Shown here: one piece after another, positions 4,698 through 28,020 of the stretch | How the letters are laid out: every line of letters begins with the position of its first letter | How positions within the stretch are numbered: the first letter of the stretch is position 1 | DNA from: an uncultured Erysipelotrichaceae bacterium | Lineage (GTDB): Bacteria > Bacillota_I > Bacilli_A > Erysipelotrichales > Erysipelotrichaceae | Direction: 5' to 3' | Assembly (NCBI GenBank): GCA_900314905.1 | Contig: OMXA01000021.1 | Coordinates: 1-32,142 of the forward strand | Length of the DNA: 32,142 bases | The notes under the pieces: model-generated | What the model saw: the letters and a program-made list of their open reading frames with translations, nothing else | What the model was told of the DNA's origin: nothing | The model's database searches: none | Position numbers and translations under genes: made by a program

Positions 4698-5444
4698 ATG
4701 CTTGGTATCGCTATTATTATCGGTTTACTCTGCTGGCTGGTTTCTTCAGCCTTCCCGATGTGGCTGAGATGGTCGTGCTATTTCGGCGCGCCGCTCGTCG
4801 CAGGTCTGGTGTGCGGTCTTCTGCTTGGCGATGTCCCGTATGGACTGAGCGTAGGCGCCACGATCATGGAAGCTTATGTCGGCTTGCTTGCAATCGGAGG
4901 CTCGCTTCCGAATGAAATGGCAATTGCTGGCTATCTCGGCGTCACGATGACCATGCTTGCAAAAGCTGATCCGTCGACCGGACTTGCTCTGTCTGTCCCG
5001 CTGGGACTGCTTGGGGTGCTTGCTCAGAATGCAAAGATGTCTCTGAATCCGATCTGGGTTCATAAAGCGGATCAGTATGCTGCAGAAGGAAATATCAAGG
5101 GAATCAAGTGCATGAACCTGTTTGCTTCGCAGATCTTCCCGTTCATCTTCTATTTCATTCCGGTATTCCTCTGCGTATATCTGGGCGGCCCGTTCTTCGA
5201 GAGTCTCATGAGTTCGATTCCGGACCAGCTGACCAAGATTCTGCAGCTGATCGGACATATGATGCCTGCATTAGGAATGGCAATGCTGATGCAGTCTCTC
5301 TCAAAAGATACCTTGATTCCGTTCCTGATCATCGGCTTTGTTGCTGCGGCATATTTGAATATCAGCACGATGGGCATCGCAATCATCGGTGCAGCACTGG
5401 CAATTCTCCATTACTTCTATCTTGGCAGCAAGGAGGGTGAGTAA
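4698..5444 (+). CDS. PTS mannose/fructose/sorbose-family EIIC
   Basis: 248 residues, very hydrophobic, with several predicted membrane segments across the whole length and motifs typical of mannose-family EIIC (GLLLGDVPYGLSVGATIMEAYVG, and ALGMAMLMQSL near residue 190). It forms the translocation channel together with EIID. An AAGGGGAGG ribosome binding site lies just upstream of 4698. It sits 19 nt after EIIB and 1 nt before EIID, so it belongs to the same transcript. Confidence 0.94.
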   Translation: MLGIAIIIGLLCWLVSSAFPMWLRWSCYFGAPLVAGLVCGLLLGDVPYGLSVGATIMEAYVGLLAIGGSLPNEMAIAGYLGVTMTMLAKADPSTGLALSVPLGLLGVLAQNAKMSLNPIWVHKADQYAAEGNIKGIKCMNLFASQIFPFIFYFIPVFLCVYLGGPFFESLMSSIPDQLTKILQLIGHMMPALGMAMLMQSLSKDTLIPFLIIGFVAAAYLNISTMGIAIIGAALAILHYFYLGSKEGE

Positions 5445-5445
5445 C

Positions 5446-6273: not shown

Positions 6274-6286
6274 AGAGGAGAACAGA

Positions 6287-12448: not shown

Positions 12449-12735
12449 GTCACAGCACGTGATATAAAGAAATGGCGCTGACGGAGAGACATCGTTCTCA
12501 ATGTGCATAGTCAAGCGAGCGGCATCTGGTGAAAGGCCGCATATGCGCAGAATGGTTACTGGCTCCTGAGCCTTCGATCCTGAAATGGACATCCGCAGTA
12601 GGGAAAGACGTGATCTTCACGTTACAGAGGAATGGATTGATGGATCCAGTGAGTGCAGAGCTTCAGAAGTTCTGAAAACGGGTGGTACCGCGCAGAAATC
12701 AATGCGTCCCGGGAGATGATTCTTCCGGGATTTTT
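12449..12735 (+). promoter_or_regulatory. T-box riboswitch upstream of oppA1 and pepD
   Basis: The conserved T-box GGGTGGTACCGCG lies at 12680-12692, followed by a terminator. Upstream, stem I elements are visible: GGAGAGA near 12483, AAGCGA at 12513-12518, and the distal hairpin GCGGC / GCCGC (12519-12523, 12536-12540) with CTGGTGAAAG in its loop. A 7-bp helix CTGACGGA / TCCGCAG (12478-12485, 12592-12598, one bulged A) can close stem I, followed by AGTAGG and a stem III ACGTGA / TCACGT (12608-12622). Uncharged tRNA pairing would favour the antiterminator and switch the operon on. The specifier is not certain: GAA-ATG-G at 12582-12588 (Met) is the best reading; TGG at 12586 or 12553 and TAC at 12557 are alternatives. 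The acceptor-pairing bases TGGT imply discriminator A, which fits Met or Tyr better than Trp. Confidence 0.9.
12707..12735 (+). terminator. T-box regulated terminator
   Basis: TCCCGG at 12707-12712 pairs with CCGGGA at 12725-12730, followed by TTTTTC. It sits 14 nt after the T-box motif and is the off-state structure of the riboswitch. Confidence 0.88.
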
Positions 12736-12793
12736 CTTTTCCGGAATTTCATCCAGATCCTCAATGAAGTGCTGGACAGGAGGAAAGAAGGAA

Positions 12794-14434
12794 ATGAAAT
12801 TCAGAAAGATGATGTATGCAGCGGCAGCTGCCATGCTTGCGGGGTGCTCGGCTTCCGGGAACGCCAAGGCAGCGGCGGCATCAGAAAACAGCGGCTCTGC
12901 GGAGGGATCGCGGCCGATTGTGATAGCCGTGACGAATGACATGACGACGATGGATTCTTCTCTGGTTACCGATGAAACATCCTTCAGCATGCTGTCGCTG
13001 TGCGAATCGGGACTGGTCCAGTTCGATGAAAACAAGGAACTGGCTCCGGATCTTGCGGAAAGCTGGGAGGTCAGCGAAGACGGTCTGACTTATACGTTTC
13101 ATCTGAGAGATGGAATCGTATGGTCCGATGGCAGCCCGATCAGAGCTTCCGATTTCGTTTATTCCTGGCGGCGCCTGGTGGATCCTGACACTGCTTCGGA
13201 ATACAGCTATATCATGGATTCGATTCATGTTGCAAATGCGCAGGCGGTGATTGACGGGTCGATGGATCCTTCTCAGCTCGGGGTGGAAGCGCCGGATGAC
13301 AGGACATTTGTGATTCATCTTGATGTTCCTTGCTCTTATCTGCTCTTCTGCATGTCGAACCCGCAGTTCTATCCGCTTCCGGAAAGCTTCGTGGAAGCGG
13401 AAGGAGATCAGTATGCGCTGACGCCGGATGACATGCTCTACTCTGGTGTCTATACGATGACGGAATGGGTTGCCGGAAATTCCTATACCTTCACGCACAA
13501 TGAGAACTACTGGGATGCAGAGCACTATCCTCAGCAGGAAATCGTGATCTCCTATATCCAGGACTCGCAGACAGCAATGCTGCAGTATGATTCCGGAAAT
13601 CTGGATCTGGTTACGCTGACTGGCGATATGGTCGATCGATACAAGGGAGAAGATGGATATATCTCCACGCTGACATCCGGTGTCTGGTGGCTGGCTCCGA
13701 ATATGGAAGATCCGGATCTCTCCAATGCAAAGCTCCGCGAAGCGATCAGCTATGCGGTAGATCGCCAGACAATCTGCGATTCAGTACTGAAGACCGGCGC
13801 AATTGAAGCGGACGGACTGATTGCAAAGGATGTTTCCTCCGGCCCGGATGGAACAGACTTCCGGGATGCAGCGGGAGATCTGACGGAGTATGATCCGGAA
13901 AAAGCTGCACAATGCTATGCAGAGGCGGTGAAGGAACTTGGCCATGATGCCTCCATAGAAATTCTCTATGACGATACCGATGAGACGAGCAAGGTCGCAG
14001 AGAATCTGCAGCAGATGATTCAGGATGCCTGCCCTGACATTACCGTGACGCTTTCTCCGAAACCGAAGAAGACAAGAATCGAGCTGATGCTGAGCCATGA
14101 TTTCTCAATGGTTCTGACAAGATGGGTTCCGGATTATGCAGATCCGCAGTCTTATCTGGATATCATGAAGACCGGTGCTACGATGAATGGCGGCCAGTAC
14201 AGCAATGAACAATTCGATGAACTGGAGACGAAAGCGGCAGGCGGCGAAGATGCTGCGGATGCAGAAGCTCGCTTTCAGGACATGATTGCTGCAGAACATA
14301 TTCTGGTTGCTGAAGATCATGGCATCATCCCGATCTATCAGGAGGGCGGCGCAATCATGGTCAATCCTTCCGTGAAAGGGTATCTCTCTCTGGTCATCGG
14401 CACGGGTTCCTACCGTCATATGGTCAAAGAATGA
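12794..14434 (+). CDS. oppA1: Oligopeptide ABC transporter substrate-binding lipoprotein (paralog 1)
   Basis: 546 residues. The signal peptide ends in the lipobox MLAGC, so Cys18 becomes the lipid-anchored N-terminus outside the membrane. The mature part is a family 5 solute-binding protein: LAESWEVSEDGLTYTFHLRDG, SDFVYSWRRL and RWVPDYADPQSYLD are typical of OppA proteins. I chose the ATG at 12794, with AGGAGG at 12778-12783; the longer frame would start inside the T-box. It is clearly related to, but more diverged than, the two paralogs at 16226 and 18174. It forms a T-box controlled pair with the dipeptidase gene, and probably shares OppBCDF encoded 5 kb downstream. Confidence 0.95.
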   Translation: MKFRKMMYAAAAAMLAGCSASGNAKAAAASENSGSAEGSRPIVIAVTNDMTTMDSSLVTDETSFSMLSLCESGLVQFDENKELAPDLAESWEVSEDGLTYTFHLRDGIVWSDGSPIRASDFVYSWRRLVDPDTASEYSYIMDSIHVANAQAVIDGSMDPSQLGVEAPDDRTFVIHLDVPCSYLLFCMSNPQFYPLPESFVEAEGDQYALTPDDMLYSGVYTMTEWVAGNSYTFTHNENYWDAEHYPQQEIVISYIQDSQTAMLQYDSGNLDLVTLTGDMVDRYKGEDGYISTLTSGVWWLAPNMEDPDLSNAKLREAISYAVDRQTICDSVLKTGAIEADGLIAKDVSSGPDGTDFRDAAGDLTEYDPEKAAQCYAEAVKELGHDASIEILYDDTDETSKVAENLQQMIQDACPDITVTLSPKPKKTRIELMLSHDFSMVLTRWVPDYADPQSYLDIMKTGATMNGGQYSNEQFDELETKAAGGEDAADAEARFQDMIAAEHILVAEDHGIIPIYQEGGAIMVNPSVKGYLSLVIGTGSYRHMVKE

Positions 14435-14448
14435 AAGGAGAAATGAAG

Positions 14449-15900
14449 ATGCAGGACGATTCGGAAAGACCGAATTACTGGTTCCAGAAGATTTCGGAAA
14501 TACCGAGACCTTCCTATCATGAAAAAGCAATCAGCGACTTCATCGTGAAGTTTGCAGAGGAACATGGGCTGAAAGCAGAGCAGGATGAAGTCTGGAATGT
14601 CATTGTCGAGAAGCCTGCATCGGCTGGATATGAACAGGCACCTGCACTGATTCTTCAGGGACATATGGATATGGTTCCTCAGAAGCGGCCTGGCTCCGAT
14701 CATGACTTCCGGAAAGACCCGATCCGGCTGAAGGAAGAGAACGGGCTTCTGAAAGCAGAAGACACTACGCTTGGCGCAGATGACGGGCTCGGGGTTGCGT
14801 GGATGCTGGCGGTGCTGGAAGATGATACGCTGATTCATCCTCGGCTGGAATGCCTTTTCACTGTTCAGGAAGAAGTGGGGCTTGGCGGTGCGATGCATCT
14901 GAAGCCGGAAGCGATCCGGGCGGATCGTCTCTTATCTCTGGACTGCTGTTCGGAAGGAATCACGGATCTATGCTGTGCTGGCGGACAGTATGCATACATG
15001 GATGCGAAGCTGAACTGGATTGCAAATGAGAGTGCGGTCTATGAAATGCAGATCGGCGGTCTGAAGGGCGGACATTCCGGTGCTGATATTCATCGGGAAC
15101 GCGGAAATGCAGTATGCATTGCAGCACGAATTGCAGAAGAGATGATCCGCAATGGAATTGAGGTACGGGCGATTTCCCTGAATTGCGATGAGAAGGCAAA
15201 CGCAATCCCGAGAACGTGCTCCTTCCGGTTCGCTTCTTTTTCGAAAGAACCTGAGATCAGAGCATCTATTCAGAAAAGCGCGGAAAAGATCTCGGAAGAA
15301 CTGCATTCTTCCGATCCGGGCTTTTCCTGCATTGTCTCTGAATCAAAACCGGAAGAGAAAGCTGCCGATGAAGTTTCGACGAAGAATCTGCTCGATTTCA
15401 TCTGGCTGGCACCGCAGGGATTCCAGCATCGCAGCATGGATCCGAAACTGAACGGACTTACGGTTACCTCTCTGAATGCAGGTACTGCGGAGACTTTCGA
15501 GGATCGGATCACTGTAACCTGGCTGATCCGCTCGATGTTTGATTCTGCATCGGCAGACCTGCTCGGAATCCTGAAGACACTTGCGAGCCGCTGCAAAGTC
15601 GGCTTCCGGTATACGGAATTCTTCCCTGGCTGGCAGTATGCAGAGCATTCTGAACTGAGAGAAATCTATGCGGAAGTCATGAAGAAACAAGGAAGAGAAC
15701 TGAAGGCTGAGGCAGAACATGGGGGCCTCGAAGTCGGCATCTTCGCTGCCCTCCATCCTGGGCTGGATATCTGCACGCTCGGGGCGGACTGCCGGTATTA
15801 TCACACTTATGATGAGGAACTGGATCTGGCTTCCTTCAGAAGAGGCTATCAGACGCTGAGAGGCATCATTGCAGAATGTGCTGAAAAGGGGATTCGGTAA
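14449..15900 (+). CDS. pepD: PepD-type M20 dipeptidase (Xaa-His dipeptidase family)
   Basis: 483 residues, a usual PepD length. Metal-site motifs are intact: GHMDMVPQ (His72, Asp74), GADDGLG (Asp111, Asp112), VQEEVGLGG (Glu141, Glu142) and LLSLDCCSEG (Asp165). It should be a cytosolic zinc aminopeptidase that splits dipeptides. The frame overlaps the oppA1 stop by ATGA at 14431, but the ATG at 14449 has AAAGGAG at a normal 8-nt distance and is preferred. With oppA1 it makes a coupled unit that both captures and cleaves peptides under T-box control. A terminator follows. Confidence 0.93.
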   Translation: MQDDSERPNYWFQKISEIPRPSYHEKAISDFIVKFAEEHGLKAEQDEVWNVIVEKPASAGYEQAPALILQGHMDMVPQKRPGSDHDFRKDPIRLKEENGLLKAEDTTLGADDGLGVAWMLAVLEDDTLIHPRLECLFTVQEEVGLGGAMHLKPEAIRADRLLSLDCCSEGITDLCCAGGQYAYMDAKLNWIANESAVYEMQIGGLKGGHSGADIHRERGNAVCIAARIAEEMIRNGIEVRAISLNCDEKANAIPRTCSFRFASFSKEPEIRASIQKSAEKISEELHSSDPGFSCIVSESKPEEKAADEVSTKNLLDFIWLAPQGFQHRSMDPKLNGLTVTSLNAGTAETFEDRITVTWLIRSMFDSASADLLGILKTLASRCKVGFRYTEFFPGWQYAEHSELREIYAEVMKKQGRELKAEAEHGGLEVGIFAALHPGLDICTLGADCRYYHTYDEELDLASFRRGYQTLRGIIAECAEKGIR

Positions 15901-15940
15901 GAGATTCCGGTGTTCTGAATAGATTGAGCTTGATGAAGTG

Positions 15941-15972
15941 CCGCTGTATTCTGCGGAATACGGCGGTTTTTT
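15941..15972 (+). terminator. Intrinsic terminator after pepD
   Basis: CCGCTGTATT at 15941-15950 pairs with AATACGGCGG at 15957-15966 (one G-U pair), a 10-bp stem with a 6-nt loop, followed by six T. The 190 bp after it are A-rich and hold no gene, only promoter-like sequence for oppA2. Confidence 0.9.
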
Positions 15973-16166
15973 CTGCTTCAGAGGCAGCGTCATCAGAAAA
16001 CAGAAAATTCATGGGCAAAAAAACGATAAAACAGCTGAAATACAGAAAAAAATGCTGAAATCGCAAGAATAATCAGGAAAATATGCAGAATACTGAAAAA
16101 TTGAAAGAAAATAGAAATAAAAATCAATAATAATTCAATTATTTGAAAAATAAATTCACAAGATCG

Positions 16167-16194
16167 TTGAAAATCACCGGGAGGATTCTAAAAT
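16167..16194 (+). promoter_or_regulatory. Promoter of oppA2
   Basis: TTGAAA at 16167-16172, a 16-bp spacer and TAAAAT at 16189-16194, then GCT. The A-rich tract upstream could act as an UP element. The same -35 and -10 sequences, followed by GCT and a shared CCAGAGAGGAGGG leader, precede oppA3. The open frame of oppA2 extends back to an ATG within the -10 box, which therefore cannot be the start. Confidence 0.7.
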
Positions 16195-16225
16195 GCTCTT
16201 ATTACCAGAGAGGAGGGGGATTCAG

Positions 16226-17878
16226 ATGATGAGCTTTCGAAGAATGACGTGTTTCGTTTTATCTATTGTGCTGCTGGCTGGCTGCAGTTCTGGCACTGCT
16301 TCTGCGGCGGTTTCCAGCACCAGTTCTGCCAGCGCTTCTGCTTCAGGGGATAAGAGAGCAGTTACGATTGCGATGGATGCAGATCTCAACACCATGGACT
16401 ATGAAGTGGCTACCGATGGCGGCTCCTTCACAATGCAGGAAATGTGCATGGCTGGTCTTGTGCAGATCGACGAGAACGGACAGCCGCAGCCTGATCTTGC
16501 AGAGAGCTGGGAAATCAGCGAAGATGGCCTGACTTACACCTTCCATCTGCGGAAAGGATTGAAATGGTCGAATGGAGAACCGCTGACCGCTGCCGACTTC
16601 GTCTTCGGATGGCAGCGCCTGGCTGACCCGGATCTTGCGTCTGAGTATAACTTCCTGGAAACGACGATCGGTGTCGTGAATGCTTCGGAAGTGATCAGCG
16701 GTGAAGCTGACAAGAGCGAGCTTGGGGTAGAGGCACCGGATGATTCGACATTCGTGGTTCATCTGTCACAGCCTTGCGGATTCATGATGTCACTGATGGG
16801 ATTTCCGTCTCTGTTTCCGCTCAATGAGGCGTTCTATGAATCAGAGGGGGACTCCTATGCACAGAGTGTGTATGATCTGCTGTATTGCGGGCCGTATCTG
16901 ATGACTGGCTGGGAAACAGGAAACCAGTATACGTTCACGAAGAATCCGGAGTACTGGGATGCGGACCATACGCAGGTGGAGACAGTCGTGTTCAAGTTCC
17001 TGCAGGATACTCAGTCGGCAATGCTGGAGTTCCAGAGCGGCAATATTGATGTGGTTCAGCTGGCCAGCGAGCAGGTTGATGCTTATAAAGATGCCGAAGG
17101 GTTTACCCAGGTACTGGCGGCGTATTCGTGGAGACTTGATTACAATTACGATCTCGAGATGCTGCAGAACAAGGATCTGCGTGAAGCGATTTCCAAGGGA
17201 ATCGATCGTACTGCCATTGCGGAGAATGTGCTGAAAGACGGCTCAATCGCTGCCAAGGGATTCATCCCGGAACAGTTTGCGTTCGGACCGGATGGCAAGG
17301 ATTACCGCGAGACGGCAGGAAATCTGGTTGATGAGAATGTCGAAGAAGCGCAGGCTGCTTACGAACGGGCGAAGGAAGCACTGGGCAAAGATGTGACTTT
17401 GACGCTGCTGTTTGAAGACAGCGAGGCATGCAAGGCCGTTGCGGAGAATCTGCAGCAGCAGCTTGAGACGAATCTCCCGGGTATCACGATCAATCTGGAC
17501 TCCAAGCCGAAGAAGACTCGTCTGGAACTCATGAATAAGCATGAGTATGAGATCGGCCTGACCAGATGGGGGCCTGACTACGCGGATCCTCAGACGTATC
17601 TGGATCTCTATAAGTCTGACATGCCTGGCTATACAGGCTCCTATCAGAATGAGAAGTACAATGCGGTGATGAATCGTGCTGAAACGGGGGAAGATGCTGC
17701 AGATGCTGAGGCTCGCTGGGCTGATCTGATTGAGGCTGAAAAGATTCTCATGGAAGATTATGCAATCTGCCCGATCTATCAGAACGGCAGGGCAATGATG
17801 ATCAATCCGGATATCGGCGGTATTTACTATCTGATGGTCGGCGGTGCTCCGTATCGACATATGTATTTCAAAAACTGA
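16226..17878 (+). CDS. oppA2: Oligopeptide ABC transporter substrate-binding lipoprotein (paralog 2)
   Basis: 550 residues with a lipoprotein signal ending LLAGC (Cys20) and a Ser/Ala-rich linker. The body is a family 5 solute-binding protein (LAESWEISEDGLTYTFHLRKG; RWGPDYADPQTYLDLYKSD). The chosen ATG at 16226 has AGGAGG at 16211-16216; a second ATG follows at once. It is very similar to oppA3 over its full length, with identical DNA blocks of 36 bp (17351-17386 versus 19302-19337), pointing to a recent tandem duplication or gene conversion. It has its own promoter and terminator, so it is made as a single-gene transcript and must use a permease encoded elsewhere, most simply OppBCDF downstream. 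Confidence 0.95.
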   Translation: MMSFRRMTCFVLSIVLLAGCSSGTASAAVSSTSSASASASGDKRAVTIAMDADLNTMDYEVATDGGSFTMQEMCMAGLVQIDENGQPQPDLAESWEISEDGLTYTFHLRKGLKWSNGEPLTAADFVFGWQRLADPDLASEYNFLETTIGVVNASEVISGEADKSELGVEAPDDSTFVVHLSQPCGFMMSLMGFPSLFPLNEAFYESEGDSYAQSVYDLLYCGPYLMTGWETGNQYTFTKNPEYWDADHTQVETVVFKFLQDTQSAMLEFQSGNIDVVQLASEQVDAYKDAEGFTQVLAAYSWRLDYNYDLEMLQNKDLREAISKGIDRTAIAENVLKDGSIAAKGFIPEQFAFGPDGKDYRETAGNLVDENVEEAQAAYERAKEALGKDVTLTLLFEDSEACKAVAENLQQQLETNLPGITINLDSKPKKTRLELMNKHEYEIGLTRWGPDYADPQTYLDLYKSDMPGYTGSYQNEKYNAVMNRAETGEDAADAEARWADLIEAEKILMEDYAICPIYQNGRAMMINPDIGGIYYLMVGGAPYRHMYFKN

Positions 17879-17911
17879 AAATTTTTCAGAATAGCTTGGC
17901 GAAGAAACTGA

Positions 17912-17942
17912 GGGCTTCCGGAGAAATCCGGAAAGCCCTTTT
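17912..17942 (+). terminator. Intrinsic terminator after oppA2
   Basis: GGGCTTCCGGA at 17912-17922 pairs with TCCGGAAAGCCC at 17927-17938 (11 pairs with one bulged A), followed by TTTT. The remaining 170 bp before the oppA3 promoter are AT-rich with no gene. Confidence 0.88.
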
Positions 17943-18112
17943 ATTGGAACGGAATTCATGCATGATAATGGCACTGAATGCGGCTTCGGCAATGCATGTA
18001 TGGGAAACTCTAAAGAAAGGGGAGATTCCAGTTTCAGAAACGAAATTGATGAAAATATAAATGATATTAAATGAAAAAATAAAAAATTACGTGAAAAAGT
18101 GTCAAAAATATG

Positions 18113-18141
18113 TTGAAAATTATGAAAATCAAAAATAAAAT
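18113..18141 (+). promoter_or_regulatory. Promoter of oppA3-oppBCDF
   Basis: TTGAAA at 18113-18118, a 17-bp spacer and TAAAAT at 18136-18141. The leader is about 26 nt. A minimal frame ATG-AAA-TAA (18166-18174) sits between AGGAGG and the true start, ending in TAATG; it is probably without function. Confidence 0.75.
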
Positions 18142-18173
18142 GCTAAGTATTCCAGAGAGGAGGGAATGAAATA

Positions 18174-19829
18174 ATGAAAAGCTTCAGAAAAGTGCTGACG
18201 GCCGGACTGGCAATGGCGATGCTGGCGGGCTGCAGCAGCGGAGGCAGCTCCAGTTCAGGCGGCAGTTCCACCGGAAGTACCGCGGCGGCTGCTTCGGGTG
18301 CCGGATCTGCCGTTACCGTAGCAATCGATGCAGATCTGAACACGATGGACTATGAATATGCAACAGATGGCAACTCCTTCATCATGCAGTCTCTCTGCAT
18401 CGGCGGTCTTACCCAGCTTGACAAGGATGCCCAGGCACAGCCGGATCTTGCTGAGAGCTGGGATGTCAGTGAAGATGGCTTGACTTACACATTCCATCTC
18501 AGAGATGGCATCAAGTGGTCGAATGGGGAACCGGTTACAGCTGCTGACTTCGTTTATGGCTGGCAGCGTCTGGTCAGTCCGGATCTCGCTTCCGAATACA
18601 ACTTCATCGTTTCCACGGTCGGCGTTGTGAATGCGGATGAAGTCATCGCCGGCGAAAAGGATGTCAGCGAACTTGGCGTTGAGGCACCGGATGATAAGAC
18701 CTTTGTCGTTCACCTGGCTCAGCCGTGCGGATTCTTCCTGCCGCTGATGGCATTCCCGTCATTCTTCCCGCTGAACAAGGCGTTCTATGAATCGGAAGGC
18801 AGCAACTTTGCACAGAGCACTTCTGATCTGCTGTACTGCGGTCCGTATACCATGACCGACTGGCAGACTGGCAACCAGTACACCTTCACCAAGAATCCGG
18901 ATTACTGGGATGCTGACAGCATCACAGTCGAGACAGTGACATTCAAGTTCCTGCAGGATACCCAGTCCGCAATGCTGGAGTTCCAGAGCGGAAACATCGA
19001 TGTCGTGAAACTTGCCAGCGAGCAGGTTGATGCTTACAAGGATCAGGAAGGCTTCACCACACGTCTGCAGGGCTATGCATGGAGACTTGACTACAACTTC
19101 GATAATGCAACGCTGCAGAACAAGGATCTCCGCGAAGCAATCTCCAAGGGAATCGATCGTACTGCAATTGCAGAGAATGTCCTCAAGGATGGCTCTGTTG
19201 CAGCAGAAGGATTCATCCCGAAGGAATTCGCTTATGGCCCGGATGGCAAGGATTACCGCGAGACTGCAGGCAATCTGATTGTCGAGAATGTTGAAGAAGC
19301 ACAGGCTGCTTACGAACGGGCGAAGGAAGCACTGGGCGGAGATGTTACCGTAACATTGCTGTTTGAAGACAGTGAAGCCTGCAAGGCAGTTGCGGAGAAC
19401 CTCCAGCAGCAGCTGCAGACCAACCTGCCTGGCATCACCGTCAACCTGGATTCCAAGCCGAAGAAGACCCGTCTTGAACTGATGCAGAATCATGATTATG
19501 AGATCGGTCTTACCAGATGGGGTCCTGACTATGCAGATCCGCAGACTTACCTCGACCTCTTCAAGTCTGACAGAGCTGGTTATACCGGTTCCTACAGCAA
19601 TGAAGAATACAATGCTCTGATGAACAAGGCAGAGACTGGCGAAGATGCGGCAGATGCAGAGGCACGCTGGGCTGATATGATTGCGGCTGAGAAGATGCTG
19701 CTGGATGATTATGCAATGTGCCCTGTCTACCAGAATGGCGGCGCAATGATGATCAATCCGAAGGTTTCCGGCATTGAGTTCCATAATGCTGGCGTTGATT
19801 CCTATCGTCATCTGACAAAGGCAGAATGA
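18174..19829 (+). CDS. oppA3: Oligopeptide ABC transporter substrate-binding lipoprotein (paralog 3)
   Basis: 551 residues, lipobox MLAGC with Cys20, followed by a Gly/Ser-rich linker (GGSSSSGGSS). The body matches OppA family proteins (TAADFVYGWQRLVSPDLASEYN; RWGPDYADPQTYLDLFKSD). AGGAGG at 18158-18163 precedes the ATG by 10 nt. It is the gene directly upstream of oppB and probably the main binding protein for that permease. A strong hairpin after the gene should make oppA3 mRNA more abundant than oppBCDF, which is usual for binding-protein systems. The differences from oppA2 are concentrated in the signal/linker and C-terminus, so peptide preference may differ little. Confidence 0.96.
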   Translation: MKSFRKVLTAGLAMAMLAGCSSGGSSSSGGSSTGSTAAAASGAGSAVTVAIDADLNTMDYEYATDGNSFIMQSLCIGGLTQLDKDAQAQPDLAESWDVSEDGLTYTFHLRDGIKWSNGEPVTAADFVYGWQRLVSPDLASEYNFIVSTVGVVNADEVIAGEKDVSELGVEAPDDKTFVVHLAQPCGFFLPLMAFPSFFPLNKAFYESEGSNFAQSTSDLLYCGPYTMTDWQTGNQYTFTKNPDYWDADSITVETVTFKFLQDTQSAMLEFQSGNIDVVKLASEQVDAYKDQEGFTTRLQGYAWRLDYNFDNATLQNKDLREAISKGIDRTAIAENVLKDGSVAAEGFIPKEFAYGPDGKDYRETAGNLIVENVEEAQAAYERAKEALGGDVTVTLLFEDSEACKAVAENLQQQLQTNLPGITVNLDSKPKKTRLELMQNHDYEIGLTRWGPDYADPQTYLDLFKSDRAGYTGSYSNEEYNALMNKAETGEDAADAEARWADMIAAEKMLLDDYAMCPVYQNGGAMMINPKVSGIEFHNAGVDSYRHLTKAE

Positions 19830-19908: not shown

Positions 19909-20844
19909 ATGTCAAAATACATTCTGAAACGATTGGTGATCAGTCTGCTGACCTTGCTGGTGATTATCTTCATCCTGTTTCTGATGCTGGACCTGATGCC
20001 AGGTTCCCCGTTCAACGATGAAAAGCTGACAGAAGCACAGAAGATTGCTCTCTATGCAAAGTACGGACTGGATCAGCCGTTCTTCGTCCGATTTCTCAAG
20101 TATCTTGAGAACATGCTGCATGGAGATCTTGGTGTTTCTTATGTCATCAACAAGAACCGCAATGTCACGGATCTTCTTGGAAATCCGCTGCTGGTTTCGA
20201 TCCGGATCGGCGCGCAGGCCATGGTCATCGGTTCTATCCTCGGATTGCTGCTGGGGATTGCAGCGGCACTTCACCATAACAGCTGGATCGACTCTCTATG
20301 CTCCATTGTCTCTATTCTAGGTGTTTCAATTCCCTCCTACGTCTTTGCACTCCTGCTTGCGTATTACATCGGCTTCAAGCTGAAATGGGCTCCGATTCTC
20401 TACAATTCGAGTAATCCCGTCAATTCATCCGTGCTTCCTACCATCGCGCTCTCGATGTTCCCGATGGCGAATATCTCGCGTTTTGCACGCTCGGAAATGA
20501 TCGATGTCCTGAGTTCTGATTATATTTCTCTGGTCGAGGCAAAAGGAGTCAGAGAGCGTCCGCTGATCATGCACCATGCATTGCGGAACACGATGATTCC
20601 GCTTGTCACTATCATGGGACCGCTGCTGGTCAACCTATTGACTGGTTCCATGGTCGTTGAGAAAGTCTTTGCGATTCCAGGTATAGGCATGCTGATGGTG
20701 CAGGCGATTCAGTCCAATGACTATAACGTTGTCATTGCCTGTGCGTTTGTGTATTCAGCGATGTATATCATCATGATGCTGATCGTTGATATTCTGTACG
20801 GCGTCATTGATCCGAGAATCCGTGTGGCGAAAGGAGAAAAGTAA
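19909..20844 (+). CDS. oppB: Oligopeptide ABC transporter permease OppB
   Basis: 311 residues with about six membrane segments. The start MSKYILKRLVISLLTLLVIIFI and the MDLMPGSPF-like stretch (LMLDLMPGSPFNDE) are typical of OppB/DppB. The EAKGVRERPLIMHHALRNTMIPL segment is the EAA loop that contacts the ATPases. AAAGGAAG precedes the ATG. It forms the membrane channel with OppC and lies 1 nt upstream of it. Confidence 0.96.
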   Translation: MSKYILKRLVISLLTLLVIIFILFLMLDLMPGSPFNDEKLTEAQKIALYAKYGLDQPFFVRFLKYLENMLHGDLGVSYVINKNRNVTDLLGNPLLVSIRIGAQAMVIGSILGLLLGIAAALHHNSWIDSLCSIVSILGVSIPSYVFALLLAYYIGFKLKWAPILYNSSNPVNSSVLPTIALSMFPMANISRFARSEMIDVLSSDYISLVEAKGVRERPLIMHHALRNTMIPLVTIMGPLLVNLLTGSMVVEKVFAIPGIGMLMVQAIQSNDYNVVIACAFVYSAMYIIMMLIVDILYGVIDPRIRVAKGEK

Positions 20845-20845
20845 G

Positions 20846-21883
20846 ATGAGTGAAGCAATGAAACCTGAGCTGACCGATGAGATCATTGATGACTTCACGA
20901 GTGACGATTTCGTCTTTGTCCAGCGGAATGAAAAGCTTCATGACAAGGTATATCAGACTACTTCCTATGCTCATGATGTCTGGGTGCATTTCAAGAAGAA
21001 TAAAGGTGCAGTATTCGGACTTGTCATCATTGCGATCATCATCGTGATGGCAATCATCGGACCGATGATCTCAGGCTATGGAGCTGAGACCATCGAACTC
21101 TCTCAGCAGTCGCTTCCGCCGAGAATTCAGGGACTTCAGAATCTCGGGATCTTCAATGGAACGGAAAAGGGCGTGGATGTCTATGCCGAGAAGGGGTTCA
21201 CCGAGATTTATCACTGGTTCGGCACGGATACCAACGGACGCGATCTGTTTACCAGAGTCTGGGAAGGCACGCGTGTATCCTTGATTATTGCTTTTGCGGC
21301 AGCTGCGATCGATATCGTGATCGGGATGTCCTACGGTCTGATCTCGGGATACTTTGGAGGCAAGGTTGATATGGTCATGCAGAGAATTGTTGAAATTCTC
21401 AATGGCATTCCGACTCTTGTCGTGGTGACGCTGCTCGGACTGATCATGCCGTCCGGCATCAGCTCCATTGTTTTTGCCCTCATGATCACCGGGTGGATCG
21501 GCATGTCGAGAATTTCCCGCGCTGAGATGCTGAAGCTCAAGGAATCCGAATATGTTCTTGCTTCCAGAACCCTCGGTGCGAAGAGCTTCTATATCATCTT
21601 CAAGGACATCATGCCGAATATCTTCGGGCAGCTGATCATCATGTCGATGTTCTCGATTCCGAATGCGATCTTCACGGAAGCATTCCTGTCCTTCGTAGGT
21701 CTTGGCATTCAGCCTCCGCAGGCATCGCTTGGCTCATTGATTTCGGATGGCTACAAGTCCATGACAATTCATCCGTTTATCCTGATTGCCCCGATCATCG
21801 TGCTGGCTCTGCTCATGCTGAGCTTCAACCTGTTCGCGGATGGCATCCGCGATGCATTTGATCCGAACCAGAAGCAGGGATAA
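20846..21883 (+). CDS. oppC: Oligopeptide ABC transporter permease OppC
   Basis: 345 residues. A cytoplasmic N-terminus of about 60 residues precedes the first membrane segment (GAVFGLVIIAIIIVMAIIG), then an external stretch with YHWFGTDTNGRDLFTRVWEGTR, the OppC/DppC signature, and a membrane domain with the EAA loop (LASRTLGAKSFYIIFKDIMPN). The start at 20846 has AAGGAGAAAAG just upstream; the longer frame overlaps oppB by 60 nt and is unlikely. It partners OppB. Confidence 0.96.
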   Translation: MSEAMKPELTDEIIDDFTSDDFVFVQRNEKLHDKVYQTTSYAHDVWVHFKKNKGAVFGLVIIAIIIVMAIIGPMISGYGAETIELSQQSLPPRIQGLQNLGIFNGTEKGVDVYAEKGFTEIYHWFGTDTNGRDLFTRVWEGTRVSLIIAFAAAAIDIVIGMSYGLISGYFGGKVDMVMQRIVEILNGIPTLVVVTLLGLIMPSGISSIVFALMITGWIGMSRISRAEMLKLKESEYVLASRTLGAKSFYIIFKDIMPNIFGQLIIMSMFSIPNAIFTEAFLSFVGLGIQPPQASLGSLISDGYKSMTIHPFILIAPIIVLALLMLSFNLFADGIRDAFDPNQKQG

Positions 21884-21895
21884 GGAGGAACGACT

Positions 21896-22999
21896 ATGTC
21901 AATGATTCAGAGAAAGAAAGAAGACCGGGTTCTGTCAATCCGGGACCTGAATATCTCCTTTGAGACTGCGGCCGGGAGGGTGAATGCAATCCGCGGGGTA
22001 CGCATGGATCTGTTCCGCGGCGAGACCATTGCAATTGTCGGTGAGTCCGGATCCGGCAAGTCTGTGACCGTCAAGACCATCATGGGCATTCTTGCCAATA
22101 ATGGCCGTATTGATTCCGGCACGATCAATTACACCTTCACGAATGAAAAGGGCGAGCGCGAGACGGTTGACCTCACAAAGCTCACGCAGAAGGAAATCCG
22201 CTATCGCTTCAATGGCAAATATATCGCCATGGTATTCCAGGATCCGATGACTTCGCTTGACCCGACCATGCAGATCGGCAAGCAGATCATGGAGCCGATC
22301 CTGACTCATGAACATGCAAGCAAAGAAGAAGCCAGAGCCAGAGCGATGAAGCTTCTGGAAGAGGTCGGCATCGAGAATCCGGAGAAACGCTTCAAGGAAT
22401 ATCCGCATCAGCTTTCCGGCGGCATGCGGCAGAGAGTTGTCATTGCAATTGCCCTTGCCTGCAATCCGGATATCCTGATCTGCGATGAGCCGACTACCGC
22501 CCTTGACGTCACGATCCAGGCGAAGATCCTCGAACTGATCAAGCGTCTGCAGGAAGAACACAACATCTCCGTCATCTACATCACGCATGACCTCGGCGTG
22601 GTTGCCAAGGTTGCGGACTATGTTGATGTCATGTATGCCGGCCGCATCATCGAGAAAGGCGACATCAACGAGATCTTCTATGATCCGCGCCATCCTTATA
22701 CGTGGGGTCTTCTGGCATCGATGCCGGATACGGATACGAATTCCACACGTCTGTTCGCAATTCCGGGCACTCCTCCGAATCTGCTTGAACGAATTCAGGG
22801 AGATGCCTTTGCGCCAAGAAATCCGTATGCGCTTGCGATCGACTACAAGGCAGAACCTCCGATGTACAACGTCGGCGGCAAGCATCGGGTAGCTTCCTGG
22901 CTCTGCGATCCGCGGGCTCCGAAGGTCGAGATGCCGGAGCAACTGAAGGAACGCATTGCCAAGATGAAGAAGGAGGATGAGCTCTATGACCGCCATTGA
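21896..22999 (+). CDS. oppD: Oligopeptide ABC transporter ATPase OppD
   Basis: 367 residues. Walker A GESGSGKS (49-56), signature LSGGMRQRV, Walker B ILICDEPTTALDV and the switch His in ITHDLG are all intact. The C-terminal oligopeptide-ATPase extension is present (DPRHPYTWGLLASMP), but the usual cysteine cluster is replaced by AFAPRNPYA and WLCDPRAP, leaving one Cys, so no iron-sulfur site is expected; many Firmicute OppD proteins are like this. GGAGGAACG precedes the start. It overlaps oppF by 14 nt. Confidence 0.96.
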   Translation: MSMIQRKKEDRVLSIRDLNISFETAAGRVNAIRGVRMDLFRGETIAIVGESGSGKSVTVKTIMGILANNGRIDSGTINYTFTNEKGERETVDLTKLTQKEIRYRFNGKYIAMVFQDPMTSLDPTMQIGKQIMEPILTHEHASKEEARARAMKLLEEVGIENPEKRFKEYPHQLSGGMRQRVVIAIALACNPDILICDEPTTALDVTIQAKILELIKRLQEEHNISVIYITHDLGVVAKVADYVDVMYAGRIIEKGDINEIFYDPRHPYTWGLLASMPDTDTNSTRLFAIPGTPPNLLERIQGDAFAPRNPYALAIDYKAEPPMYNVGGKHRVASWLCDPRAPKVEMPEQLKERIAKMKKEDELYDRH

Positions 23000-23939
23000 T
23001 TACAGCAGTCAGCCGCTGCTGCACGTGGAAGGACTGAAGCAGTATTTCCGCATCAGCCGCACTTATACCACGAAAGCAGTGGACGGGATCAGCTTCGATA
23101 TCTTCAAGGGAGAGACCTACGGTCTGGTCGGTGAATCCGGCTCAGGGAAGTCGACTACCGGCAGAGCTGTTATCCGCCTCTATGATCCGACCGCGGGAAA
23201 GATCATCTTCGATGGGCATGACATTTCGGGCAAGCTTTCCAAAGAAGATGAGGCTTATCTCAGGATCAATATGCAGATGATCTTCCAGGATCCGATGGCC
23301 TGTCTCAATCCGCGCAAGAAGGTCAAGGAAATCATCGCAGAAGGTCTGGAACTCCATCACCTTTATAAAGATCAGGCAGATCTGGATGAGAAAGTCTATT
23401 CCATTCTGGATCGTGTCGGTCTGTCCCGTGAACACGCGACCCGCTATCCTTCGCAGTTCTCCGGCGGTCAGCGGCAGAGAATCGGAATTGCCAGAGCCCT
23501 GATCATGCATCCGAAACTTGTCATTGCCGATGAAGCAATTTCCGCTCTCGATGTCAGCATCCAGGCGCAGGTGGTAAACTTGATGAAGGACCTGCAGGAC
23601 GAGATGGGCATCACGTATCTGTTCATTGCACATGACCTGGCAATGGTCAAATATATTTCTGACCGCATCGGGGTCATGCATCTGGGCTATATCGTTGAAA
23701 CCGGAACCACCGATGAGATCTTCGAGAATCCGATTCATCCGTATACAAGATCTCTTCTCTCTGCAATTCCTCATCCGAATCCGATCGTCGAGAAACAGCG
23801 CAAGTCGATTTCCTACGATAAGGAAAAGGAAGGCGTTGATTACAGCAAAGGAACGATTCATCAGGTGACAAAGACGCACTCTGTGATTGCGACGGAAGAA
23901 GAATTTGCAAAGTGGTCCGCACAGAAATATTCGGGCTGA
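22986..23939 (+). CDS. oppF: Oligopeptide ABC transporter ATPase OppF
   Basis: 317 residues. Walker A GESGSGKS (49-56), signature FSGGQRQRI, Walker B LVIADEAISALDV and HDLAMV are intact, as is the C-terminal HPYTRSLLSAIP segment. The ATG at 22977 touches the AGGAGG at 22971-22976, so the ATG at 22986 with a 9-nt spacing is the likely start. It pairs with OppD to power import. A terminator follows 10 nt after the stop. Confidence 0.95.
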   Translation: MTAIDYSSQPLLHVEGLKQYFRISRTYTTKAVDGISFDIFKGETYGLVGESGSGKSTTGRAVIRLYDPTAGKIIFDGHDISGKLSKEDEAYLRINMQMIFQDPMACLNPRKKVKEIIAEGLELHHLYKDQADLDEKVYSILDRVGLSREHATRYPSQFSGGQRQRIGIARALIMHPKLVIADEAISALDVSIQAQVVNLMKDLQDEMGITYLFIAHDLAMVKYISDRIGVMHLGYIVETGTTDEIFENPIHPYTRSLLSAIPHPNPIVEKQRKSISYDKEKEGVDYSKGTIHQVTKTHSVIATEEEFAKWSAQKYSG

Positions 23940-23996: not shown

Positions 23997-25316
23997 ATGA
24001 AAGGATCGTACTATATCAATCAGAATCAGCATCCTGAGATTTCGTATCTCACGGATGTCGGAAAGAAGGAGGATCCGGAGCTGTATGAATCCGGGAATAT
24101 CCAGAAAGCAGGATGCGGCATCTGTTCGGCAGCGATGATGCTGAAGGATCTGAAGAACCGTGAGGTTCCTCTGGAGGAGCTGGTTCAGCTTTCCTATGCA
24201 AGCAGGGCAAATCTGGAGCCAGGCACCGATATGGAGATATTCGGGAAGGCGCTTGCTGAAAAATACGGACTGAATCTATTCCAGTCGAACTCAGAAGCGG
24301 ATGTCATTTCGTGCCTGGCGCATGGCGGAGCATGCATTGCAAATGTCGGCGGCGATCATGGAGACCATATCGGCGTTTTCTCCAGCGGCGGTCATTATAT
24401 CTATGTATTTGACTATGATCCTGAGACAAAGCTGTTCTCGATTCTTGATCCAAGTCTTTCCGAAGGCAAATTCGAAAAGGAGGGTAGGAAGGGCAAGGTT
24501 CAGCTCAGAGGGAACATTGCAATGACAGATGTGAAGGTGCTTGCGGCAGATACGGAAAACCGTGATCCTGGCTATTATCTTTTCTTCCGGAAGCCGGTGA
24601 TCGGCATTCTCGGAGATACCTTCATGAGTGAGCCCGGCCTGTTCGTTTCTGCGGAGAAAGAATACTGCAATGCGGATTATATCCATGCCGTGCTGAGCAA
24701 TGGCGGTATTCCGGTCATTATTCCTTCCGAGCTGCTGCGTCTCGATCCCCAAAGCGCACTGTCGATGGCGGATGGTCTGCTGTTTCCAGGCGGAGAAGAT
24801 GTGGACCCCCTTCTGTATGGGGAAGAAGCGGAGCAGAAGTGCGGTGCGGTCCGGCCGGAAATTGATGAAGCATGGAAGAATGCTTATGAGTATGCTGAAG
24901 CCCATCGGCTTCCGATGCTTGGCATCTGCCGCGGGATTCAGTTTCTGAACGTGATGAGAGGCGGCACGCTCTGGCAGGATCTGTCGGATTATCGCCCGGA
25001 TGCGCTTCAGCATCTTCAGCAGTACAAGCGCTCTTATCTGCACCATGCAGTTACGCTTGAAAAAAATACGTATCTCCGGAACCTGTTCCAAGCGGATTCC
25101 GTCATGACCAACTCCATGCATCATCAGGCGGTGAAGAAGCTTGGCAGAGGATTGGTTGCAGCAGGCCGTGCAAAGGACGGAGTCATTGAAGCAATGGAAG
25201 ATGAAGAAGGGCTGATCATCGCCGTGCAATGGCATCCGGAAGGACTGACGGAAAGCAATCCGATCATGAATCTTCTGTTCCAGGATCTCGTGAAACGGTG
25301 CGGCAGGAAATCATGA
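23997..25316 (+). CDS. Two-domain hydrolase: C39-like papain-fold domain fused to C26 gamma-glutamyl hydrolase (PuuD-like)
   Basis: 439 residues. Residues 1-195 look like a peptidase C39-like domain, with Cys40 in KAGCGICSAAMML, His133 in GGHYIYVFDYD and Asp151 in ILDPS as likely catalytic residues. Residues 198-439 match the class I glutamine amidotransferase-like gamma-glutamyl hydrolase family (PuuD): FPGGEDVDPLLYG, nucleophile Cys311 in GICRGIQFLN, MHHQAVKKLG, and His413-Glu415 in QWHPEG. Both sites look intact. No signal peptide is seen, so it should act in the cytosol. PuuD-type enzymes cleave gamma-glutamyl amides. Its place just after oppF suggests it opens unusual, perhaps gamma-linked, imported peptides. 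The fusion itself is not one I recognise. AGAAGGAG precedes the start. Confidence 0.88.
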   Translation: MKGSYYINQNQHPEISYLTDVGKKEDPELYESGNIQKAGCGICSAAMMLKDLKNREVPLEELVQLSYASRANLEPGTDMEIFGKALAEKYGLNLFQSNSEADVISCLAHGGACIANVGGDHGDHIGVFSSGGHYIYVFDYDPETKLFSILDPSLSEGKFEKEGRKGKVQLRGNIAMTDVKVLAADTENRDPGYYLFFRKPVIGILGDTFMSEPGLFVSAEKEYCNADYIHAVLSNGGIPVIIPSELLRLDPQSALSMADGLLFPGGEDVDPLLYGEEAEQKCGAVRPEIDEAWKNAYEYAEAHRLPMLGICRGIQFLNVMRGGTLWQDLSDYRPDALQHLQQYKRSYLHHAVTLEKNTYLRNLFQADSVMTNSMHHQAVKKLGRGLVAAGRAKDGVIEAMEDEEGLIIAVQWHPEGLTESNPIMNLLFQDLVKRCGRKS

Positions 25317-25420
25317 TTGTGAGAACAGAGAACAGATCGCTTTTCTGCACCAGGATCAGTCTGGAAAAGACCATGAGGTCTCATGTCAGTCTTATGGAGG
25401 AAAGAAACCATCAGTTATGA
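25313..25420 (+). CDS. Possible 35-residue coupled small ORF
   Basis: The frame begins at ATG 25313, overlapping the upstream stop by ATGA, and ends at TGA 25418-25420, overlapping the downstream start by ATGA. It fills the 100-nt gap exactly. AGGAAA precedes its start. The peptide (MIVRTENRSLFCTRISLEK...) is basic, with no recognised domain. The next gene's ribosome binding site TGGAGG lies 16 nt from its start, too far for strong initiation, so translation of this ORF could deliver ribosomes to it. It may equally be chance. Confidence 0.35.
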   Translation: MIVRTENRSLFCTRISLEKTMRSHVSLMEERNHQL

Positions 25421-26268
25421 AGATCGGATATTACAACGGCGTGATGGGACCGATCGATGAAATCAGGATCCCGATGCAGGACCGTGCCTTGTTTTTCGGA
25501 GACGGAGTCTATGATGTGACGTTTGCCAATGACGGAAAGCTCTTCGCCATGGAAGATCACCTGGACCGTTTTTATCAATCCTGCAGGATGCTGAGAATTG
25601 ATTTCCCGCTCAGCCGGGAAGAGCTCGCAGCTGAAATTCAGAAGTGCGCGGACGCTGCGGGAAAGGGAGAAGTGATCCTCTACTGGCAATCCAGCCGTGG
25701 CAACTGCCCAAGAAATCATGTCTTCCCGGATTCATCTGAAAAACCGACTCTGCTGATCACAGCTTCAGAAGGAAAGCCGATTGATTATCCTCATCCGATG
25801 AAACTCTGCACGGATGAGGATACCAGATTCTATCACTGCAATATCAAGACTCTGAATCTGATTCCGAATGTCATGGCGGCAGAACATGCCAGAGAAGCCG
25901 GCTGCAGTGAATCGATCTTCCATCGCGGCAATCAGCTGACTGAATGCGCGCATAGTGCATTGCTGCTGCTGAAAGATGGAAAGCTCTTCGCTCCGGTTCT
26001 CAATGAACTGGTGCTGCCGAGCATCAGCCGCAAGCATCTCTTCGAGATCGCAGAAGCTCAAGGCATTCCCACTGAAGCAAGGGATATCACAATGGAGGAA
26101 GTCTTCGATGCCGATGAAGTCATCGTATGCAGTACGACCAAAGTCTGTGCGCATGCTGATACCATCGACGGAAAGCCGGTAGGCATGAAGGACCCGGAAC
26201 TCTTCGGCAGATTGCAGAAAGCTTACTTTGATCGGATTGAGCGTGAGATCGGACTGAAACTTGGATGA
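25417..26268 (+). CDS. dat: Aminotransferase class IV, D-amino acid aminotransferase-like
   Basis: 283 residues, the usual size of D-alanine aminotransferase. Features are YYNG at the N-terminus, ALFFGDGVYD (25-33), the PLP lysine Lys144 in CNIKTLNLIPNV, and LTECAHSALLLLKDGKL. The HCNIKTLNL pattern favours D-amino acid aminotransferase over branched-chain aminotransferase or aminodeoxychorismate lyase. It would interconvert D-alanine, D-glutamate and their keto acids, either to use D-amino acids from peptides or to supply cell wall precursors. It lies between two peptide-hydrolase genes, apparently in one operon. The exact substrate is not certain. Confidence 0.87.
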   Translation: MKIGYYNGVMGPIDEIRIPMQDRALFFGDGVYDVTFANDGKLFAMEDHLDRFYQSCRMLRIDFPLSREELAAEIQKCADAAGKGEVILYWQSSRGNCPRNHVFPDSSEKPTLLITASEGKPIDYPHPMKLCTDEDTRFYHCNIKTLNLIPNVMAAEHAREAGCSESIFHRGNQLTECAHSALLLLKDGKLFAPVLNELVLPSISRKHLFEIAEAQGIPTEARDITMEEVFDADEVIVCSTTKVCAHADTIDGKPVGMKDPELFGRLQKAYFDRIEREIGLKLG

Positions 26269-26328: not shown

Positions 26329-28020
26329 ATGAATCAGAACCGCAGCATTGATCCGGCACTTCGCCGGAAATACCGGGAAACAGATCTTGCGCTTGCAGAT
26401 CTTTATCACCGTGTGAGCAAGGATACGGATGAGACTTCTGAACAGCTGAAGCCTTGTTTCATTCCGTCAGAAGAGAATCTGAAAAAGGCAGGCAGAGAAC
26501 AGGAATCTCTCATCAGACAAGTGGAAGAGCTGGAAACGCCGGATGCAGTTACCAAGGTGATGAAGCATCATTTTGAAGATTTTCTGGATACGCTGGACTA
26601 TGCAATCGATTCTGCGATGCGTCATCCGGAATCCGTCTTTCTCGGGTTTGACAGCCTGCTGGAGAGTGTATCCCGCTGCAACCGTCAGCCGGATCAGGAG
26701 CGCTTCGACGGACTGATGAACCTTCTGAAGCAGAAAGAAGAAGAATCTGCCGCCGTGCAGAAGCTCATCCTGGAACAGACTGCAGAAGTGAATCGTGCAG
26801 ATCTCTCCGCTTCCTTGAGGTCTGCCTCTGCTTCCGTTTCAGAAGAGATTGCAAGGATTCCGTCCTGCTTTCCCGGATTTGCCGAGGGCATGTGTGAAGC
26901 GCTTCAGCAAGCATTGGAAGCTTATGCAGAGACTCTGAAGAAGATGGCATGCGGCATCCATTCGGAAAGAACTGCTGCTGCAGAAAGCAGTGAAGAGGAT
27001 CTTGATCGCCATCTGAGGATGAGTCCGGAAGAATACAGGACCATCCTTCAGAAGAAGCTCGGCGTGAATCTCGATGAGCTGAGCTCCTGGTATCAGGAAG
27101 AAATGGAGAAGACCAGAGAAGAGATCTTTGCAATTGCCGGTACGCTCGGAATTCCTGAGAAGCCTGAGAATATGCAGGATATCGCTGATATTCTCTTCCG
27201 ATATGAACCGCCCTGCAGCAATGCTGAAGAGATGTTTGCAAAAGAGAGGGAATACCTGAAGCGGACCAGGAAGGTCGCACATGAATACGTCAGCCTGCCT
27301 GAGGAAGAACAATGCCTTGTCATGCCGACTCCGGAATGCTGCAGGGACAGCTATCCCTGGGGCGGATATGAAGGCGGTGATTTCCGCTATCGCCCTCTGA
27401 GGGGACAGATGTTTCTGAATCAGTACAACGTGAAGAATATCTCTGACGGATGGCTGAAGCTCAATGCCTTGCATGAAGCATATCCTGGCCATCATGTGCA
27501 GTATGTGCGGATGGCGGTAGATGAACGTCCGGCAACCGTGAAGATCGGGACCAAGCTGATTCCGGTCCTGGAAGGAACCACCCTCAGAACAGAACGGGCA
27601 TTCCAGGATACCTTTGCAGAAGACAGGTTCTTCCCGCTGTTTGTCGCTTATCGCCGTCACCATGCGGCGACCAGAATCGCTGCCGATCTCATGCTGCATT
27701 GCCAGGATCGTCCGATCAGAGATGCAGTGGACCTGTATCGGAAAGAGCTGGGGCTGGACTTCACGACGGCCAGAGGCCAGGTCCGTGCACAGGAGTATAT
27801 GACTGGATATTTCAGCTGCTATTACTATGGAATGAAGAAGCTGACCGGATGGGAGAAGCAGTACGGATTTACAAAGAAGAACTTCACGGAACTCCTGTTC
27901 TCGGTGGGCTACATCTCGATCGATCGCTTTGAGGAGATCCTGAAGCTTTCCGAAGAAGAACGGTATCGTCTGTTCCATGATTTCGGAAGCCTGAAAGGGA
28001 AGACTGCCCCGGGGTTCTGA
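26329..28020 (+). CDS. DUF885-family putative metallopeptidase
   Basis: 563 residues, a normal length for DUF885. The zinc-binding motif HEAYPGHHVQ (His382, Glu383, His387 and His388) and the downstream ARGQVRAQEYMTGYF segment are characteristic. Secondary-structure pattern is mostly helical, with charged stretches in residues 1-300. No signal peptide is visible, so it should be cytosolic. Members are treated as M2/M3-like peptidases but few have a known substrate. A GGAG lies about 12 nt upstream of the start. It is the last gene of the peptide-use cluster; no clear terminator follows before the gpmA promoter. Confidence 0.88.
   Translation: MNQNRSIDPALRRKYRETDLALADLYHRVSKDTDETSEQLKPCFIPSEENLKKAGREQESLIRQVEELETPDAVTKVMKHHFEDFLDTLDYAIDSAMRHPESVFLGFDSLLESVSRCNRQPDQERFDGLMNLLKQKEEESAAVQKLILEQTAEVNRADLSASLRSASASVSEEIARIPSCFPGFAEGMCEALQQALEAYAETLKKMACGIHSERTAAAESSEEDLDRHLRMSPEEYRTILQKKLGVNLDELSSWYQEEMEKTREEIFAIAGTLGIPEKPENMQDIADILFRYEPPCSNAEEMFAKEREYLKRTRKVAHEYVSLPEEEQCLVMPTPECCRDSYPWGGYEGGDFRYRPLRGQMFLNQYNVKNISDGWLKLNALHEAYPGHHVQYVRMAVDERPATVKIGTKLIPVLEGTTLRTERAFQDTFAEDRFFPLFVAYRRHHAATRIAADLMLHCQDRPIRDAVDLYRKELGLDFTTARGQVRAQEYMTGYFSCYYYGMKKLTGWEKQYGFTKKNFTELLFSVGYISIDRFEEILKLSEEERYRLFHDFGSLKGKTAPGF

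Follow-up and report, generated by a model that had tools for sequence, protein, structure and literature searches.

What is the function of a protein that joins two different cysteine hydrolase domains in one chain and is encoded directly behind the genes of an oligopeptide importer? Such a protein is encoded in the stretch of DNA analyzed here, a 32,142-nucleotide contig of an uncultured Erysipelotrichaceae bacterium (GCA_900314905.1, contig OMXA01000021.1), which is termed the window in its entirety. The host genome is a draft of 2.14 Mb in 76 contigs with 94.6% completeness, and the window is one of these contigs. An intact open reading frame (ORF), preceded directly by AGAAGGAG, runs from an ATG to a stop codon at positions 23997 to 25316 of the forward strand and encodes 439 amino acids with no internal stops. 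A protein search of the host genome gave one match to this fusion protein. The parts of the ORF are as follows.

23997..24593, + strand: N-terminal Peptidase_C39_2 papain-fold domain, residues 1-199, with catalytic Gln9, Cys40, His133 and Asp151 (Pfam, conservation, AlphaFold2 and fold search)
24591..25316, + strand: C-terminal Peptidase_C26 (gamma-glutamyl hydrolase-like) domain, residues 199-439 plus stop, with Cys311, His413 and Glu415 (Pfam, sequence match to PDB entry 3fij, fold and conservation)
24576..24602, + strand: fusion joint, at which the last C39 strand passes directly into the start of C26 (YLFFRKPVI) without a linker, stop codon or start codon (by-eye comparison with the locus of the nearest relative)

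An earlier note on this DNA had proposed that two cysteine hydrolase folds were present in one protein, with active sites at Cys40/His133 and Cys311/His413/Glu415. Pfam assigned residues 9-152 to Peptidase_C39_2 (PF13529; 31.7 bits against a cut-off of 24, E 2.6e-7) and residues 200-415 to Peptidase_C26 (PF07722; 193.4 bits against a cut-off of 20.5, E 5.7e-57, profile positions 1-219 of 219). Both matches exceed chance, and the N-terminal half does match a papain-fold family. In this half, Gln9 (oxyanion) and Asp151 complete a papain-type Cys-His-Asp site with Cys40 and His133; all four residues were kept in 25 of 25 aligned rows and were also invariant in the 28 rows of a second alignment. 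The Cys-His-Glu triad of the C26 half was likewise kept in 25 of 25 rows, and both proposed active sites were thus upheld. AlphaFold2 returned mean pLDDT values of 90.4 (full-length protein) and 97.2 (N-terminal half alone), and a fold search with the predicted structure of this half indicated a papain-like fold. By score, site and predicted fold, the protein is a member of both Peptidase_C39_2 and Peptidase_C26. The peak 19-residue mean hydropathy was 1.25, which does not suggest a membrane segment, and hence the protein is most likely cytosolic.

More-specific assignments were tried and rejected. The bacteriocin-leader peptidase C39 family (PF03412) reached 12.2 bits against a cut-off of 22, and the partner domain is C26 rather than an ABC exporter. 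The PuuD gamma-glutamyl-GABA hydrolase equivalog (NF008471) scored 85 bits against a cut-off of 266. At E values up to 1, Pfam detected neither NlpC/P60, the domain of YkfC-type endopeptidases, nor phytochelatin synthase (PF05023), for which the resemblance is one of fold only.

The nearest relative of the fusion is found at a locus of Lactimicrobium massiliense (L002), where the halves are encoded by two genes with an ATGA overlap, the C39-like gene ending at 10612 and the C26 gene starting at 10609; a Peptidase_S58 gene starts at 11343 with a 4-base overlap with the C26 gene. Identity to the window is 60% across the N-terminal half and 65% across the C26 half. As the halves are overlapping genes in this relative, the fusion is, on this sequence comparison, a merged operon pair. 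The joint, which reads YLFFRKPVIGI, is linker-free and about 20 nucleotides (nt) shorter in the window than in L002 (counted by eye), and the stop and start codons have both been lost. No second C39-C26 fusion was present among the loci read, the fusion having been found in one genome only, and it hence looks derived. No such enzyme was known to the author of the earlier note, and searches of open-licence papers aimed at the combination did not find it. Some kilobases from the C39, C26 and S58 genes of L002, at 4667-6296, lies a gene pair that resembles transposases of the IS200/IS605 type.

The N-terminal half is a member of a separate C39-like family of about 200 amino acids. Of 316 genomes of the order, 24 gave a match at E up to 1e-3, and for 20 of them the match reached 1e-16 or better. 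In a sample of the C. clostridioforme family (Lachnospiraceae), 36 of 280 genomes matched at 1e-8 and 4 of 280 at family level (E < 1e-60), with the remaining matches being mostly partial C39_2 matches. Gene contexts were read at 26 cellular loci (window, L002, L040-L059 and L094-L097), with the matches of genomes G210, G045, G058, G169 and G175 lying outside this set. One of the 26, L059, is an 86-residue piece at a contig end and was omitted from the alignments; another, L055, starts at a contig end, such that its downstream neighbour is unseen. The loci are not independent, as there are groups of near relatives (L041/L042/L044/L045, L043/L046/L047, L056-L058, L054/L055 and L094/L095).

The position behind oppBCDF, to which the earlier note had drawn attention, recurs in this family. 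A C39-like gene lies immediately 3′ of an oppF-type gene on the same strand at 3 of the 26 loci, with gaps of 57 nt in the window, 3 nt in L053 and about 32 nt in L096. These three genes fall in separate subgroups of a tree whose deeper forks are partly weak (window with L002, 100/99; L053 with L050, 100/99; L096 with L094 and L095, 90/88). Each of three checked genomes had 10 oligo_HPY matches, corresponding to about five ATPase pairs; as a genome was assumed to have about 2,000 genes, the chance of a random gene being placed behind oppF was estimated, after the fact, as well under 1 in 100.

A second recurrent feature is coupling to another hydrolase. The C39-like gene is fused to a C26 or M20 gene, or lies up to about 70 nt 5′ of one on the same strand, at 9 of the 26 loci: the partner is C26 in the window and L002, an adjacent M20 gene in L041, L042, L044, L045 and L054, and a fused M20 domain in L048 and L051. 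In L096, an M20 gene heads the Opp run and was counted as a tenth coupling. Among the M20 proteins that were compared with NCBIfam, 'glutamate carboxypeptidase' was the top model for L041 and L096 and the second for the fused L048 protein, always under the cut-off, while the M20 protein of L054 was of the amidohydrolase type. The C39-M20 proteins (L048:7872-9587, − strand, 571 amino acids; L051:5947-7680, + strand, 577 amino acids) constitute a second kind of two-hydrolase fusion. A run of FAD-dependent oxidoreductase, C39-like, M20 and glutamine synthetase genes was observed in four genomes (L041:9187-13724 plus L042, L044 and L045; families scanned on L041 only).

The remaining contexts of the C39-like genes yield no single story. 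At L053:7857-12314 (− strand), the gene forms part of an oppD-oppF-C39-like-fructoselysine-kinase-like-deglycase-like run, in which both sugar genes scored under the cut-off and which suggests import and processing of glycated peptides. The gene is found beside Gfo/Idh and CpXC genes in L043, L046 and L047 (Pfam on L043), and at L043:4107-4913 a protein with CW_7 repeats, which presumably bind the cell wall, is encoded divergently from these genes. A sulfatase maturase gene is the neighbour in L052. In three genomes, divergent C39-like genes occur immediately 3′ of spoIVA, at L056:7268-9433, L057:592-2714 and L058:4454-6560 (Pfam on L056, others by eye), and these three cluster with phage proteins in the tree (99/99).

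Relatives of the family are also present in phages. A scan of viral contigs yielded six loci, including three full-length relatives with 32-38% identity (L088-L090), and a second scan added two contigs (L150 and L151) and one truncated by its contig end (L154); two further entries, L152 and L153, repeat the contigs of L089 and L090. A holin gene lies next 3′ in L088 (PF09682, E 1.5e-15, and also a PHROG holin), the only relative beside a Pfam holin. The L089 gene is 3′ of a baseplate gene and of small ORFs with predicted transmembrane (TM) segments, such ORFs lie on the flanks in L150 and L151, and the L090 gene is 3′ of a tail-fibre gene with no small predicted-TM ORF adjoining. Small ORFs of this type, as predicted by a simple hydropathy script, adjoin the relative in four of the five phage contigs. 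The nearest BFVD models were of phage peptidases (TMq 0.89 and 0.86), and some of the weaker matches were phage lysins. These positions and models make the C39-like family a candidate endolysin type, and C39-like and Peptidase_C39_2 domains do appear in endolysin surveys (PMC3314691 and PMC13284279). The phage endolysins share the Pfam family or fold with the N-terminal half, whereas the fusion protein is chromosomal, lies behind oppF and is joined to C26.

For the C26 half, a tree of 25 rows placed the window and L. massiliense with three Clostridium-type sequences (100/99), apart from the other C26 proteins of the family. The loci of these three, together with L141 (52% identity), contain OppABCDF-M55 D-aminopeptidase-M42-C26 runs (Pfam on L004, others by similarity). 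Thirty C26 loci with flanks of varying length were read (window, L002-L005, L098-L117 and L141-L145); an Opp gene was in view at 9 of these and a window-like transaminase at 5, one of which (L101) is a weak match at a contig end. The neighbours within the clade of the C26 half are Opp, M55 D-aminopeptidase, S58 or D-amino-acid-transaminase-like genes. Amino-acid-permease-like genes flank C26 instead at L098-L100, L104, L110, L142 and L145 (by eye). In three loci of the same genus (L107, L115 and L116), C26 has neighbours of the OppABCDF, D-amino-acid-transaminase and beta-aspartyl-peptidase types, which together look like a catabolic cluster for isopeptides and D-residues; TIGR01975 (beta-aspartyl-peptidase) was above the cut-off in L107 and L115, the two that were scanned.

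The best structural match of the N-terminal half was PeiR, a pseudomurein endoisopeptidase encoded by the methanogen provirus phi-mru (PMC6189367; PDB 8z4h), with the bacteriocin-type C39 domain of PCAT1 and the glutathione-cleaving Alr0975 close behind. PeiR is an archaeal virus lysin with pseudomurein-binding repeats; it has no C26 domain and exhibits 15% identity over the aligned part. Alr0975, a prokaryotic phytochelatin-synthase-like protein (PDB 2bu3 and 6tho), shares the papain fold but only 20% identity over the aligned part, its Pfam family is unmatched by the fusion protein and the matched chains are without C26. According to its PDB entry titles, it forms an acyl intermediate with glutathione, which as a substrate is of the gamma-Glu-X-Y type. 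The C26 half resembles the hydrolases PuuD, SpuA and Lin1909 in fold (TMt 0.79-0.91, 26-34% identity), but these are without a C39 half. YkfC has been proposed to be a cysteine peptidase that cuts murein peptides at the gamma-D-Glu bond, being cytosolic in B. subtilis and Chlamydia and tied to Dpp or Opp importers (chlamydial YkfC, PMC9928106). The context of the fusion protein suggests a YkfC-like role, but YkfC is an NlpC/P60 protein with SH3b domains and no C26, whereas the fusion protein is without NlpC/P60. A search for NlpC/P60 in the host genome gave no matches, while the same search matched 9 of 14 control genomes.

Context and fold together point to a two-step hydrolase. We give an about even chance to the fusion protein being a cytosolic enzyme with two active sites that degrades gamma-glutamyl peptides imported by the adjoining Opp system. 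These substrates would probably be wall-type peptides with D-amino acids, in favour of which are a neighbouring gene for a D-amino-acid-transaminase-like protein, the D-aminopeptidase genes that accompany the C26 clade and the relatives in phages. Opp would import the peptide and both cuts would be made in the cytosol. The C39-like half would cut first, one residue past gamma-Glu (between X and Y of gamma-Glu-X-Y), a position suggested by what is known of PeiR and Alr0975, and the C26 half would then cut between gamma-Glu and X; with both steps in one chain, the intermediate could pass from site to site. The earlier note had envisaged that an imported peptide is processed in two steps, for example by a peptide-bond cut and then removal of a gamma-linked glutamyl group. 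This view, in which the substrate is our inference, is consistent with the L. massiliense operon pair, the fused C39-M20 proteins, the resemblance of the fold to PeiR and Alr0975, and the Opp and D-aminopeptidase context of the C26 clade.

A broader proposal is offered tentatively and may well prove wrong: Erysipelotrichaceae and Lachnospiraceae may have adopted a phage-endolysin-type C39 family as a cytosolic wall-peptide peptidase, repeatedly placed behind Opp and coupled or fused to interchangeable C26 or M20 second-step hydrolases, as an equivalent, not based on NlpC/P60, of the YkfC route for gamma-D-glutamyl muropeptides, with the fusion as its tightest form. If true, this would identify a pair of enzymes for muropeptide digestion in a genome in which NlpC/P60 was not found, place a phage-lysin-type fold in the service of nutrient salvage and supply enzymes of gut-type bacteria that can be assayed directly with gamma-D-glutamyl peptides. 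The C39-like family with its swapped partner hydrolases would then also constitute a ready set for substrate comparison.

Other explanations were weighed against this hydrolysis of wall-type peptides. Salvage of glutathione and other gamma-L-glutamyl peptides would have an Alr0975-like C39 half cutting between gamma-Glu-Cys and Gly and a C26 half splitting gamma-Glu-Cys, with no cell-wall link. We consider this rather unlikely, as wall peptides or D-peptides are indicated by the lysis-type positions of the phage relatives and by the neighbouring D-amino-acid and D-aminopeptidase genes, and as the phytochelatin synthase family was unmatched at E up to 1. It is quite improbable, in our view, that Opp imports a mixture of isopeptides (gamma-Glu, beta-Asp and glycated Lys) in which the halves cut different, unrelated bonds, with the fusion ensuring co-expression only and no channelling. 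The combination of C26 with Opp, D-amino-acid-transaminase-like and beta-aspartyl-peptidase genes in L107, L115 and L116 is in favour of such a mixture, as is L053, where oppF and a fructoselysine-kinase-like gene (under the cut-off) flank the C39-like gene, but the tight C39-C26 coupling in two genomes and the C39-M20 coupling or fusion in seven others suggest consecutive steps.

Catabolism of folates or other poly-gamma-glutamates, in which C26, as a classic gamma-glutamyl hydrolase, and CPG2-like M20 partners would strip glutamates off folates, draws on the similarity of C26 and some M20 partners to glutamyl-removing enzymes. This is very improbable: the C26 half is nearest to Lin1909, PuuD and SpuA, with the gamma-glutamyl hydrolase entry 1l9x matching at just E 0.027, Opp is a peptide importer and there is no evident role for the C39 half. 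Finally, a base error could have joined two genes, as the fusion comes from one draft genome and the relative keeps separate genes. An assembly artefact of this kind is barely credible, since a single-base or sequencing error would not remove about 20 nt from the joint together with the stop codon and the start codon.

The neighbourhood of the fusion gene in the window contains the following genes.

12653..14434, + strand: oppA copy 1 (SBP_bac_5; 4-nt overlap with the M20 gene; the listed start codon may be too far upstream)
14431..15900, + strand: M20 dipeptidase of the beta-Ala-His dipeptidase (PepD-like) subfamily (TIGR01893, 391.7 bits against 343.75)
16193..17878, + strand: oppA copy 2 (SBP_bac_5)
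18174..19829, + strand: oppA copy 3, substrate-binding protein (SBP_bac_5)
19909..23939, + strand: oppB, oppC, oppD and oppF, oligopeptide importer (domain scans for OppB, OppC and OppF; oligo_HPY at 22649 and 23694)
25417..26268, + strand: D-amino-acid-transaminase-like class IV aminotransferase, 100 nt 3′ of the fusion (PF01063; TIGR01121, 199.9 bits, under the cut-off of 277.45)
26329..28020, + strand: DUF885 protein with a HEAYPGH motif (PF05960; motif)

Three oppA paralogues are thus present in series at 12653-19829, the first overlapping the PepD-like M20 gene, and the DUF885 protein is possibly a further peptidase. The host genome also encodes an S66 protein and an L-Ala-D/L-Glu-epimerase-like protein (229.7 bits, under the cut-off of 500). 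We infer that these two and the PepD-like M20 protein are relatives of other steps in the murein-peptide breakdown route described in PMC2954226. Farther upstream, the region 1048-7096 of the window contains genes that by eye belong to a mannose-type PTS and, in divergent orientation, to a LevR-like regulator; after them comes a gene of the BtpA/SgcQ family, for which TIGR00259 scored above the cut-off.
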